This document shows positions 3,720 through 9,156 of a stretch of 12,467 bases of DNA, one piece after another. The stretch is from Chloroflexota bacterium (GTDB lineage: Bacteria; Chloroflexota; Limnocylindria; Limnocylindrales; CSP1-4). Each line of letters starts with the position of its first letter. The first letter of the stretch is position 1. Both the position numbers and the translations under genes were made by a program. The stretch spans positions 1-12,467 of the forward strand of contig JAJYMP010000039.1 in assembly GCA_021786915.1 (NCBI GenBank), read 5' to 3'. The notes beneath the pieces are model-generated. The model had not been told where the DNA came from and did no database searches. It saw only the letters and a list, made by a program, of their open reading frames with translations.

Positions 3720-3738
3720 TTCAGCCGCCGAGGCTGAA
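3720..3738. repeat. Inverted repeat at cytochrome b promoter region
   Basis: The arms TTCAGCC (3720-3726) and GGCTGAA (3732-3738) are perfect 7-base complements around a 5-base centre. The right arm contains the first half-site of the 11-base-phased array, so this may be part of the same protein-binding site rather than an RNA hairpin. Confidence 0.5.
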
Positions 3739-3760
3739 TCCCTGATGAGCGCGGTCTGAA
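3734..3760 (+). promoter_or_regulatory. Operator array 1: three half-sites at 11-base spacing, upstream of cytochrome b
   Basis: CTGAA (3734), ATGAG (3745) and CTGAA (3756) are direct repeats spaced exactly 11 bases. This is one helical turn, the geometry used by tandem OmpR/PhoB-family regulators. The array lies 68-94 bases upstream of the cytochrome b start, and its motif strand is opposite to the gene, as in the arrays at 6849 and 9130. It is the most divergent of the four arrays (two units end in A), so it may be a weaker site. A promoter -10 element is not clear. Confidence 0.55.
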
Positions 3761-3830
3761 CGGTCGGTGAGGAAGTGACGGCACCTGGTCGCGGCCCGGG
3801 TACGGCTCGCTCAGGCGTGTGGAAACGGAG

Positions 3831-3866
3831 GCGGGCGGGATCCGCACCGAGGTGGATCCCGCCCGC
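3831..3866 (-). terminator. Perfect 13-bp GC-rich hairpin, possible terminator
   Basis: The arms at 3831-3843 (GCGGGCGGGATCC) and 3854-3866 are perfect reverse complements around a 10-base loop. Read on the minus strand, it is followed by CTCCGTTTCC, a weak pyrimidine tail with three T, so it could end a minus-strand transcript. On the plus strand no T tail follows. It may terminate read-through from the DUF1461 gene or a short RNA starting near 4000. Confidence 0.5.
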
Positions 3867-3923
3867 TCGGCGGCCCATCGCAGGAGCCGCGTGGACGGCG
3901 GCCCGGGGGGAGGCCAGGCACGT

Positions 3924-3963
3924 CCGGTCGACAGTCGGTGGCGTGCCCGTGTCCGACGACCGG
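3924..3963. repeat. Bulged inverted repeat in non-coding region
   Basis: CCGGTCG (3924-3930) pairs with CGACCGG (3957-3963), and TCGG (3935-3938) pairs with CCGA (3953-3956), giving an 11-pair stem with a 4-base bulge on one side and a 14-base loop. It has no tail of T on either strand, so it is not an obvious terminator. It could be a structured RNA element. Confidence 0.4.
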
Positions 3964-4019
3964 TCCACCGCCTGCCGCCCTGTGAGAGGGAGAGGACGAC
4001 GAGAGTCTCGGGCGGCGGT

Positions 4020-4046
4020 CTGAGCGCAGCCTGAATTGCGGCTGAG
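4020..4046 (+). promoter_or_regulatory. Operator array 2: three half-sites at 11-base spacing
   Basis: CTGAG (4020), CTGAA (4031) and CTGAG (4042) are direct repeats 11 bases apart. The last unit continues as TGAGACTTG, the same as in the array at 6849 and one base from the array at 9130. It has the same orientation as the other three. No annotated gene starts just downstream on the minus strand; the nearest is cytochrome b, 354 bases away. It could drive an unannotated RNA or act as a distal site for cytochrome b. Confidence 0.6.
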
Positions 4047-6826: not shown

Positions 6827-6848
6827 GGCCCGATGCTCGGGCCGCAGG

Positions 6849-6875
6849 CTGAGAGCCAGATGAGCCTCTCGTGAG
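6849..6875 (+). promoter_or_regulatory. Operator array 3: three half-sites at 11-base spacing, upstream of HMA gene
   Basis: CTGAG (6849), ATGAG (6860) and GTGAG (6871) are spaced exactly 11 bases in the gap between the kinase stop and the HMA start. The first unit continues as CTGAGAGC, as in the array at 9130, and the last as TGAGACTTG, as in the array at 4020. Its closeness to the ATG (22 bases between) means it either overlaps the promoter, as a repressor site would, or the transcript starts very near the gene. Confidence 0.6.
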
Positions 6876-6916
6876 ACTTGGGCTCGGCCGGACGGCCTAC
6901 TGAGGAGCGCGTTGCC

Positions 6917-8323
6917 TCAGTCCGCTCTGGCTGGCAGCACGATCTCCACCCGCGTGCCTCCCTCAGCGCGAGGCGAGAGCGTGATCGTCGCGCCGTGGGC
7001 GTCGGCGATCCAGCGGGCGATTGCAAGGCCCAGGCCCGTGCCCGAGGGGCGAACCTGGCGCGCCCTGCGTCCGCGGAACAGCCGCTCGAACAGGTGGTCT
7101 GCGTCCTCCTCGTCGATCCCGATGCCCGTGTCGTCCACCGTCACCACCGCCGTCTCATGGAGCGTCGCGAGGCGCGCGGTGACGCTGCCGCCGGTTGGGG
7201 TGTACCGCGCCGCGTTGTCCAGGACGATCCCGAACAATTCGCGCAGGCGGTCTGCATCGCCCTCGACGACAACGGGCTCCACGGCGGCCACCGACATCCG
7301 CACGTGCGTCGCTGCCTGTCTCTGCCGGCGGACGCAGTCCACCAGGAGCGCATCGAGCTCGACCGGCAGGAAGGTGAGCCGGGCCCCGGACTCGGCCCTC
7401 GCGAGCGAGAGGAGGTCGGCGATGAGTCGGCCCATCCGTTCGGCCTCATCCCGGGCGTCGTCGAGGATGGACGCCCGCTCTGCGGCGTCGAGGCCGGGAC
7501 GTGTCGCGAGGTCGAGGTTGGCCCGGATCACGGTCAGCGGGGTGCGGAGCTGGTGCGAGGCGTCGCCCAGGAACCGCTGCAGCGCGTGGTGGCTGGACTC
7601 GAGAGCGGCCAGCATCTCGTTGAACGCGGCGGCGAGCTCGCCCACCTCGTCGGGCACCTCCGGGCGCTCAACGCGCGCCCCGAAGTCGCCCGAGAGCGCG
7701 ATGGCGCGTGCCGTCTCGGTCACGTCGGCCACGGGCGTGAGCGCTCGGCGCGCGAGGAGCAGTCCGGCGACGAGCGCCAGCAGCGTCACCGCCAAGCCTC
7801 CCAGGAGGAGCGCGACCCGCACGGTGTCCAGCAGCGATCGCAGCGGTCGGGTGCTGTCCGCCCAGACGACGTACCCGAGGGTCGCCCCGCTGGGCGCGAG
7901 GACAGCCTGCACGGTGACGCGGAGGACGTCTCCCTGCACCGGGTGCTCGTGGATGTAGTGGTCGTGGCGGTCCGCGGCTGCAAGGTCGTCGGGCGTGACC
8001 GGGAGGGCCGGCTCCGCGGCGGGAGCGGAGTCGGCGATCTCGCGCCCGGCGGGGTCGAGCACGAGGATCCTCCCGCCGGTCGAGGCCAGCTGGGACACGA
8101 GCCTGGGCGTCGGCGACAGATTCCCGGCCGCGTCCACGTCCTGGCTCACGGCCCCGGCCGCGTGCTCGGCGTTGGCGACGAGCGAGTCGTCGAAAGACAT
8201 CTGGAGCTCGCGGCTCAGGACGACGTACATGCCGCCGCCGAACGCGGCCAGGGCCGCGGCGAGAAGGGCCGCGTAGAGGAGCGCGAGCCGCAGGCGGATC
8301 GTGAGCGGCGGGAGGCGGATCAC
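6917..8323 (-). CDS. HAMP/HisKA sensor histidine kinase with His-rich sensor loop
   Basis: 468 residues from a GTG at 8323 that overlaps the regulator's stop by 4 bases (GTGA). Helix one (about 9-36) and helix two (about 167-191) enclose an extracytoplasmic domain of about 130 residues. HAMP spans about 192-245. HisKA carries the phosphorylated His257 in F-L-G-D-A-S-H-Q-L-R-T-P. The ATPase domain has the N box (L-D-N-A-A-R-Y-T-P, Asn370), D-T-G-I-G-I (398-403) and G-T-G-L-G-L-A (428-434). The sensor domain contains R-H-D-H-Y-I-H-E-H (119-127), with four histidines that could bind copper, zinc or nickel in the outer space. The sensed signal is inferred from that stretch and from the neighbouring metal proteins. 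It should phosphorylate the regulator encoded just upstream in the same operon. Confidence 0.92.
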   Translation of the reverse strand: MIRLPPLTIRLRLALLYAALLAAALAAFGGGMYVVLSRELQMSFDDSLVANAEHAAGAVSQDVDAAGNLSPTPRLVSQLASTGGRILVLDPAGREIADSAPAAEPALPVTPDDLAAADRHDHYIHEHPVQGDVLRVTVQAVLAPSGATLGYVVWADSTRPLRSLLDTVRVALLLGGLAVTLLALVAGLLLARRALTPVADVTETARAIALSGDFGARVERPEVPDEVGELAAAFNEMLAALESSHHALQRFLGDASHQLRTPLTVIRANLDLATRPGLDAAERASILDDARDEAERMGRLIADLLSLARAESGARLTFLPVELDALLVDCVRRQRQAATHVRMSVAAVEPVVVEGDADRLRELFGIVLDNAARYTPTGGSVTARLATLHETAVVTVDDTGIGIDEEDADHLFERLFRGRRARQVRPSGTGLGLAIARWIADAHGATITLSPRAEGGTRVEIVLPARAD

Positions 8324-9003
8324 CCGTCCTTGAGCACGTAGCCGGCGCCGCGCACCGTGTGGATCAGCCTCGGCTCGCCACCGCCCTCGAGCTTCCCCCG
8401 CAGGTAGCGGACGTACACCTCGAGGACGTTCGACTCGCCGTCGAAGTCGTAGGACCACACGTGGTCCATGATCACGTCCCGGGTCAGCACCTTGCGCGGG
8501 TGGCGCATGAACAGCAGCAGCAGGTTGTACTCGGTCGTCGTGAGCTCGATCCGGCGCGCCCCGCGGCGCGCCTCGCGCGCGTCGACGTCGAACTCCAGGT
8601 CGGCGAACCGGAGGACCTCGCCCGCCGGGGCGGTGCGGCGGCGCAGGAGCGCGTGGACGCGCGCCAGCAGCTCCTCGAAGTTGAACGGCTTGACCAGGTA
8701 GTCGTCGGCGCCGGTCTCGAGGCCCTCCACCCGGTCGCGCACCTCGTCGCGCGCGGTGAGCATCAGGATGGCGACCTCGTCGCCGGCCGCGCGCAGCCGG
8801 CGCGTGACCTCGAGCCCGTCGATGCCAGGCATCATCACGTCGAGGACGACGAGCTGGGGCAGGTGCTCGCGCGCCTTCTCGAGGCCCTCCTCGCCCGTGG
8901 CGGCCTCGACGACGCGGTACCCCTCGTAGGCGAGGCCGCGGCGCACCACGGTCCTGATCTTGGGGTCGTCGTCGACGACCAGGATGCGCGTGGGGTCGGC
9001 CAT
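8320..9003 (-). CDS. OmpR/PhoB-family response regulator
   Basis: 227 residues. The receiver domain (6-119) has the acidic pocket D-D-D (11-13), phosphoacceptor Asp55 in V-V-L-D-V-M-M-P-G, Thr83 and Lys105. The DNA-binding domain (about 128-225) is a winged helix of the Trans_Reg_C type, with L-T-T-T-E-Y-N-L-L, the recognition-helix region around S-N-V-L-E-V-Y-V-R-Y-L-R-G-K-L and H-T-V-R-G-A-G-Y at the end. Such proteins bind tandem direct repeats, commonly at 10-11-base spacing, which matches the arrays found upstream of this gene and elsewhere in the window. The ATG at 9003 is chosen because the receiver fold begins right after it; AGGAGG lies 12 bases upstream, slightly far. A possible -10 (TACGAT on the minus strand, 9066-9071) lies between the array and the gene. 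Probably autoregulated. Confidence 0.95.
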   Translation of the reverse strand: MADPTRILVVDDDPKIRTVVRRGLAYEGYRVVEAATGEEGLEKAREHLPQLVVLDVMMPGIDGLEVTRRLRAAGDEVAILMLTARDEVRDRVEGLETGADDYLVKPFNFEELLARVHALLRRRTAPAGEVLRFADLEFDVDAREARRGARRIELTTTEYNLLLLFMRHPRKVLTRDVIMDHVWSYDFDGESNVLEVYVRYLRGKLEGGGEPRLIHTVRGAGYVLKDG

Positions 9004-9129
9004 AGCGGCGAGGTGCCTCCTGCGGTGACTGCGCCGCCGGACCGATGAGTCCGCCAGTCGCGGCGATCGTACGATGTCGCGCTCGGCGCCGTCGCCCGTG
9101 GTGGCACGGTCGCAGAGTGCGCTCCGAAT

Positions 9130-9156
9130 CTGAGAGCAGTCTGAGCGCCCGCTGAG
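9130..9156 (+). promoter_or_regulatory. Operator array 4: three CTGAG half-sites at 11-base spacing, upstream of the regulator
   Basis: CTGAG occurs at 9130, 9141 and 9152, three perfect copies spaced exactly 11 bases. They lie 127-153 bases upstream of the response-regulator ATG. The first unit extends as CTGAGAGCAG and the third as TGAGACTCG, matching the flanks of the arrays at 6849 and 4020. This is the strongest member of the set and a natural autoregulatory site. Confidence 0.68.

Follow-up and report, generated by a model that had tools for sequence, protein, structure and literature searches.

The PHO boxes of Streptomyces and Escherichia coli, as presented in parts of two reports (PMC7866108, PMC4415409), are built from head-to-tail 11-nt units of seven conserved and four variable bases, with a TCA core in units such as GTTCACC and CTGTCAT, and the PhoP units at glpQ1/glpQ2 overlap the -35 region; the first of these sources also describes operators of Streptomyces PhoP that comprise four or five such units (PMC7866108). 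An 11-bp spacing also appears in excerpts of the report on CopR, a copper-responsive regulator of Corynebacterium glutamicum, whose site TGAAGATTT-nn-TGAAGATTT repeats TGA after 11 bp; CopR switches on its own cluster as well as genes for multicopper oxidase and Cu-ATPase, and its site marks one intergenic target region in the genome, 266-285 bp upstream of the cg3286 transcript start (PMC3140484). Here we analyse a 12,467-nt contig of a Chloroflexota bacterium (JAJYMP010000039.1; hereafter the window), whose host is Limnocylindria-like and which carries arrays of TGA half-sites repeated every 11 bp. Very probably, the arrays serve the adjacent OmpR/PhoB-type response regulator as operators and upstream promoter elements, from which it would activate metal and respiration genes.

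Exact 11-bp TGA triplets stand at 3735/3746/3757, 4021/4032/4043, 6850/6861/6872 and 9131/9142/9153 on the + strand of the window, with an extra fourth TGA at 3768 in the first array, and none occurs on the - strand. A first-pass annotation of the same DNA had placed four triple arrays at 3734, 4020, 6849 and 9130; the arrays are real, their coordinates were one base off, and the first has four units. It had correctly put all of them on one strand and in non-coding DNA, 5' of the regulator, the HMA gene and cytochrome b and inside a 402-base gap, and the extra bases that it ascribed to the outer units are present as claimed (CTGAGAGC in two arrays, TGAGACTYG in three). Its description of the half-sites as mostly CTGAG does not hold, CTGAG proper accounting for 6 of the 13 units.

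These four arrays are far beyond chance. TGA is common in the window (117 times on one strand, 109 on the other), which lends some colour to the idea of chance repeats in GC-rich DNA; against it, triple TGA at periods 8-15 was counted 0, 12, 1, 149, 11, 1, 1 and 7 times in 37 contig pieces from the host's own and related genomes, triple AGT was absent from the same pieces at every one of these periods, and a -10 element follows the arrays in phase, so that chance can be practically discounted. As a stand-in for the window we used contig L001 (JAJZRG010000060.1, Chloroflexi bacterium SKS1.bin7), which is 99.6-99.9% identical to it across three blocks, together with its genome, G001, where TGA-N8-TGA-N8-TGA occurs 40 times and its reversed form is absent. 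The earlier expectation that such arrays would not be equally frequent in shuffled or coding DNA was borne out. Counting the window's five registers, 151 of 154 arrays have at most five coding bases in DNA of which 80% is called coding, and a coding origin is rejected; because three TGA at 11 bp put a stop in all three frames of their own strand, the intergenic share expected by chance should, by reasoning, be about one third rather than one fifth. An operator profile built without the window and L001 scores the window arrays 43.9, 37.0, 36.2 and 24.4, and 25 Markov-1 copies of the window gave a single value above 12 (15.8) and none of 16 or more. The same profile adds a fifth window site at 4752 on the + strand (score 22.0), which the first-pass annotation had missed.

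For the general operator profile, window copies, three arrays with more than five coding bases and six GGTCA-type arrays were left out, as were overlapping registers of four-unit arrays (146 to 127), the final set comprising 121 operators. Aligned on the array alone, they give the coding-sense consensus [T]CTCAG-N6-CTCA-N7-CTCAG, that is, three and sometimes four CTCA half-sites at exactly 11 bp; a fourth TCA unit stands at offset -11 in 19 operators, compared with 0 and 1 when shifted one base either way. We rejected a + sense reading of the window arrays on the ground that the genes downstream of them are on the other strand. Taking as the expected direction the side and strand on which an array reads TCA-N8-TCA-N8-TCA, 84 of the 146 intergenic arrays have a gene within 300 nt only in that direction, 12 only in the opposite one, 31 in both and 19 in neither. 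The -10 letters played no part in finding the arrays, and the profile has A at offset 37 in 84% and T at offset 41 in 90% of operators; ANNNT begins at offset 37 in 102 of the 121 and at any other offset from 26 to 55 in 0-9. The -10 hexamer starts after an 11-base gap from the last TCA, and this fixed spacing would centre the units near -47, -36 and -25. No -35 hexamer apart from the repeat units appears in the profile. With direct repeats over the -35 region at a fixed distance from the -10, the operators fit, as far as sequence can tell, a PhoB-type class II promoter. ATG occurs in 20 operators at offset 48, in 15 at offset 49 and in 0-6 at any other offset from 40 to 65; of these 35 ATGs at the predicted +1 or +2, 28 open a frame of at least 45 codons and seven do not. 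The start codon thus appears often to coincide with the predicted +1, as it does in the window's HMA gene, which is predicted to be leaderless with its ATG at 6826 (as seen in the matching contig, L001).

The window regulator carries PF00072 and PF00486, both above gathering, as expected of the OmpR/PhoB type. Its 120 best listed relatives, out of 8000 scored, are 85-96% identical to it, and the few of them that are named are assigned to Limnocylindria, Limnocylindrales or Chloroflexi, with one Sulfomarinibacteraceae. We scanned 177 genomes, 107 of the family and 70 of the class outside it. Orthologues (E <= 1e-80) are present in 23 of the 107 family genomes as 28 gene copies, and within 400 nt of 24 of these lies an operator with a score above 20. 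In G004, G022 and G032 a multicopper-oxidase-family gene (67% identity between G022 and G004) stands immediately before the regulator, and the operator is found in front of that gene, about 1.2 kb upstream of the regulator; the G012 copy has only 92 nt of upstream DNA, so that 27 copies are testable. An operator stands at the regulator's own or operon promoter in all 27, one of them being the window's copy in L001. The arrays also follow the regulator from genome to genome. A loose pattern averages 12.0 matches in regulator-positive and 2.25 in regulator-negative genomes (Mann-Whitney p = 2.9e-11), and a strict pattern has 115 matches in 22 of 23 positive versus 20 in 13 of 84 negative genomes (Fisher p = 7.5e-13), both p-values overstating independence since the genomes are related and shared ancestry was ignored; reversed, the strict pattern matches once in all 177 genomes. 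Contigs bearing the regulator make up 1.7% of the sequence and hold 72 of the 115 strict matches, the operators of the regulator genes themselves included. The recognition-helix region, SN[VI]LEVY[VI]RYLR, shows only V/I changes across 17 aligned regulators. The adjoining regulator is therefore, on placement and co-occurrence, the best candidate for the protein that would bind these operators, and orientation, phased -10, promoter placement and co-occurrence support the first-pass annotation's reading of the arrays as OmpR/PhoB direct-repeat sites of a regulon that takes in the regulator, HMA and cytochrome b.

The operators and genes concerned lie in the window as follows.

9131..9155, - strand: operator of the response-regulator promoter, three TCA units, profile score 36.2
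9114..9119, - strand: predicted -10 of the regulator, CACTCT, by the phase of the operator profile, with the predicted +1 at 9107
8320..9003, - strand: OmpR/PhoB-type response regulator (Response_reg and Trans_reg_C), the proposed binder
6917..8323, - strand: sensor histidine kinase (HAMP, HisKA, HATPase_c)
6850..6874, - strand: operator of the HMA gene, profile score 43.9
6833..6838, - strand: predicted -10 of the HMA gene, GAGCAT, by the phase of the operator profile
6593..6826, - strand: HMA-domain protein of 77 aa (PF00403)
6353..6574, - strand: YHS-domain protein (PF04945)
5135..6322, - strand: LGT-like membrane protein (PF01790)
4839..5111, + strand: TRASH-like small protein (PF24273, E 3.3e-4, below gathering)
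4752..4776, + strand: fifth, weaker operator, third unit CTAAG, 5' of the TRASH-like gene, with the -10 at 4788-4793, score 22.0
4021..4045, - strand: operator in the 402-base gap, with the -10 at 4004-4009 and the predicted +1 at 3997, score 37.0
3828..3927, - strand: candidate short RNA, conserved core, with a terminal hairpin at 3831-3866
3735..3770, - strand: operator of the cytochrome b operon, four units, score 24.4
3717-3722, - strand: -10 of the cytochrome b operon, GAACTT, shifted one base from the usual phase
2578..3666, - strand: cytochrome b (PF13631, PF00033)

The window's - strand genes are two complex I subunits, the response regulator, the histidine kinase, and HMA, YHS, LGT-like, Lit-like and cytochrome b genes; the complex I subunits were assigned by eye, and the head of the YHS-NuoA-NuoH operon was located in L001. 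The TRASH-like gene is the one on the + strand, and a full operator belongs to a gene in G010:C72 that resembles it at the N-terminus. At the window's edge, 3-386 encodes a cupredoxin-like protein (PF13473, below gathering), and the product of 383-787 matches the CsoR-type metal repressor family (PF02583), by eye without the usual Cys/His ligands. L001 has two insertions absent from the window, at about 13.7-15.1 kb and 16.3-17.7 kb, one of which encodes a 328-aa mutator-type transposase (PF00872) and the other a 414-aa open frame.

Across the genomes, a called gene lies no more than 400 nt from 108 of the 121 operators. Annotated by Pfam on cluster representatives, with most singletons left unannotated, the targets counted by operator comprise the regulator (17), HMA proteins or metal P-type ATPases (15), a lipoprotein family (12), cupredoxins (12), cytochrome b (5, one gene with two operators being counted twice), YHS proteins (5, including the YHS gene that heads the complex I operon), multicopper oxidases (4) and FtsX/MacB permeases (4), followed by DoxX-like proteins (3 and 2, the first group below the Pfam cut-off), PEMT (3), M23 peptidases (2), M48 peptidases (2) and 22 singletons. 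At the permease operators of G100 and G070, an ATG at +1 opens a frame of 75-76 codons that is HMA-like by eye and was missed by the gene caller. The lipoprotein family (A4; L169:3824-4276 and relatives) is hypothetical, with invariant DTH and GGHHR motifs and 689 relatives at E <= 0.001 among 1194 candidates; it has no Pfam family and no PDB match at E <= 0.001, and is modelled as a beta protein (predicted local distance difference test score, pLDDT, 84). The operator and promoter architecture is real and well supported, and a metal-and-respiration regulon is predicted. The first-pass annotation had called it a probable local regulon; the regulon is supported and the restriction to this locus is not, 28 of 33 operators profiled from the near-identical genome lying on other contigs.

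As for the signal, the top NCBIfam models are heavy-metal subfamilies that both proteins score below cut-off: TIGR01387 (cztR_silR_copR) for the regulator, with 241 against 279.2 bits, and TIGR01386 (cztS_silS_copS) for the kinase, with 201.5 against 292.55 bits. Copper or a similar soft metal is consequently a reasoned guess. In the sensor domain, one His follows the first membrane helix in 23 of 23 aligned kinases (three more were not recovered).

We propose that the histidine kinase senses a signal, most likely such a metal, and that the phosphorylated regulator would then occupy the three (or four) CTCA units head-to-tail along one helical face. These units would cover about -48 to -24, the middle one standing in for the -35 element, and the bound regulator would draw RNA polymerase to a weak -10 (nAnnnT) a constant distance away. 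The genes activated in this way would be its own operon, HMA/YHS, cytochrome b, the TRASH gene and, more tentatively, a short RNA from the 402-base gap; targets at other places in the genome would be metal P-type ATPases, cupredoxins, multicopper oxidases and the YHS-led complex I operon. Arrays, phase, orientation, placement at regulator promoters, co-occurrence and target content are computed observations; from these we infer the regulator as binder, activation over repression, phosphorylation and the metal signal.

Several points weigh against this proposal, among them the relatedness of the genomes and the inclusion of the regulators' own operators given with the counts above. Twelve of the 121 operators lack both -10 letters and seven lack one; the gene caller was simple, getting some starts wrong and missing some small genes; and the reversed loose pattern has 0-3 matches per genome, so some noise is present. 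Permeases, peptidases, PEMT, MFS and cyclopropane synthase among the targets have no evident metal link, and no firmly conserved metal-ligand set was established in the sensor, where D-x-H-x-H is variable over the 23 kinases. Besides the 13 regulator-negative family genomes with strict matches, four of the 70 class genomes outside the family have five, and G098 and G073 have 15 and 12 loose matches. Nine regulator-negative genomes that were checked encode other OmpR-type regulators at 40-50% identity; another regulator could act on similar sites there, or the orthologue could have been lost to an incomplete bin.

These persisting matches, together with the several OmpR-type paralogues found in each of ten genomes checked, would suit a scheme in which a different OmpR-type regulator of the same genome uses the arrays and the adjoining one is merely a target. 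We consider this unlikely, given the operator at every testable regulator copy, the strict matches sharing its contigs, and three Bacillota relatives (47-48% identity) that also have TTCAG arrays upstream of themselves. Slightly less credible still is that the regulator represses, with arrays over the -35 region, a position that repressors also use, blocking polymerase until metal releases it: the profile has no -35 hexamer besides the repeat units, and a -10 at one fixed phase is not needed for repression. The signal could be envelope or redox stress rather than copper, the metal genes forming only part of the response, which is possible if somewhat doubtful; DoxX, FtsX/MacB permeases, M48 and M23 peptidases, PEMT and cyclopropane synthase among the targets and the sub-threshold heavy-metal models speak for it, and speaking against it are the largest target groups after the regulator, namely HMA/P-type ATPases, the lipoprotein family and cupredoxins, as well as the multicopper oxidases and YHS proteins.

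The promoter in the 402-base gap is kept in G008, in G010 and in a second copy on G001:C20, where its first unit is degenerate. Between its predicted start and the cytochrome b promoter lies a conserved block ending in a long hairpin; the C20 copy shows two compensatory changes in it, and several of the 33 pairs are disrupted there. The start-to-stop frames listed for the gap (at least 24 codons) lend no support to a hidden gene: they are 36, 48 and 27 codons long, and the shortest lies within the longest. With filters that discard weak matches, a model of the block picks up four loci in 3 of the 177 genomes, all representing one and the same locus; the folding z-score of the candidate short RNA is -1.8, and Rfam gives no match at gathering within the window. 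The gap operator may drive a regulator-dependent small RNA, the alternative being a long cytochrome b leader.

An uncultured lineage thus gains a regulon readable from its DNA alone, in which one pattern of 14 fixed bases predicts regulated promoters, transcript starts and leaderless genes, and in which expression of complex I and cytochrome b would be tied to metal-handling genes. The large natural set of three- and four-unit sites also lets the unit requirement of OmpR-type regulators be tested. A bolder extension, rather doubtful as a whole, is a code shared across the Limnocylindria-like lineage, with an obligate three-protomer operator, a rigid -10 phase, often leaderless genes, regulon islands around the regulator, and a regulator-dependent small RNA whose C-rich loop would tune translation.

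A second family of 11-bp triple repeats, TTGACCGAGAC-like x3, was seen at L140:11028-11052 (G001:C20:31028), L142:2458-2482, G010:C17:69692 and G018:C60:12854, with a same-strand gene 80-111 nt away in all four cases; it is probably the operator of another OmpR-type regulator.

Three TCA units within 400 nt upstream of the regulator occur at 6 of 80 relative loci, namely L001, L003, L009 and the Bacillota loci L071, L073 and L078, with a same-phase -10 at all of these except L009 and no match of the reversed control over the 80 loci. The other 74, mostly Streptomyces, have no such exact array, although some (L002) have little upstream DNA; the site is accordingly not general to the wider regulator family. 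The three Bacillota loci have three to four TTCAG units at 11 bp; regulator-kinase pairs of this kind, some of them beside YkcB-like genes, go by the name YkoGH. Unlike the window, L071 and L073 have a mannosyltransferase (YkcB) neighbour and no metal genes among the genes scanned. A second array at L071, on the opposite strand of the same upstream region, faces the YkcB-like mannosyltransferase gene. The array geometry is older than the Limnocylindria-like lineage. A phylum sample that includes family members shows one or more strict matches in 58 of 400 genomes, and three matches of the reversed control in all.

Mycobacterium tuberculosis PhoP, which with PrrA is the closest solved relative of the window regulator by sequence, binds TCACAGC repeats at 11 bp; half-site and targets differ from those described here. 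The CzcR/SilR/CopR group (TIGR01387) is the best-scoring subfamily, yet the window regulator is not a member. Whereas CopR, in the excerpts cited, has two units, another half-site and one distant target, tens of promoter-proximal operators are found here. No description of the CTCA operator was found in the literature searched, most subscription papers lying beyond its scope. The triple layout, which the first-pass annotation thought unusual, is less so beside the four- and five-unit PhoP operators in the cited part of the Streptomyces work and the three- to four-unit arrays of the Bacillota relatives. Like PhoB/PhoP sites, as far as the cited parts describe them, the arrays are 11-nt direct repeats with a TCA core overlapping the -35 region. 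Unlike PHO boxes, with their GTTCACC or CTGTCAT units at phosphate genes, they have CTCAG(C) half-sites, three units as the rule and one fixed -10 phase, and there are no phosphate genes among the annotated target representatives, most singletons being unannotated. The layout works like PhoB/PhoP promoters, and to the multi-unit 11-bp operators already known the CTCA operator is an unusually complete addition.

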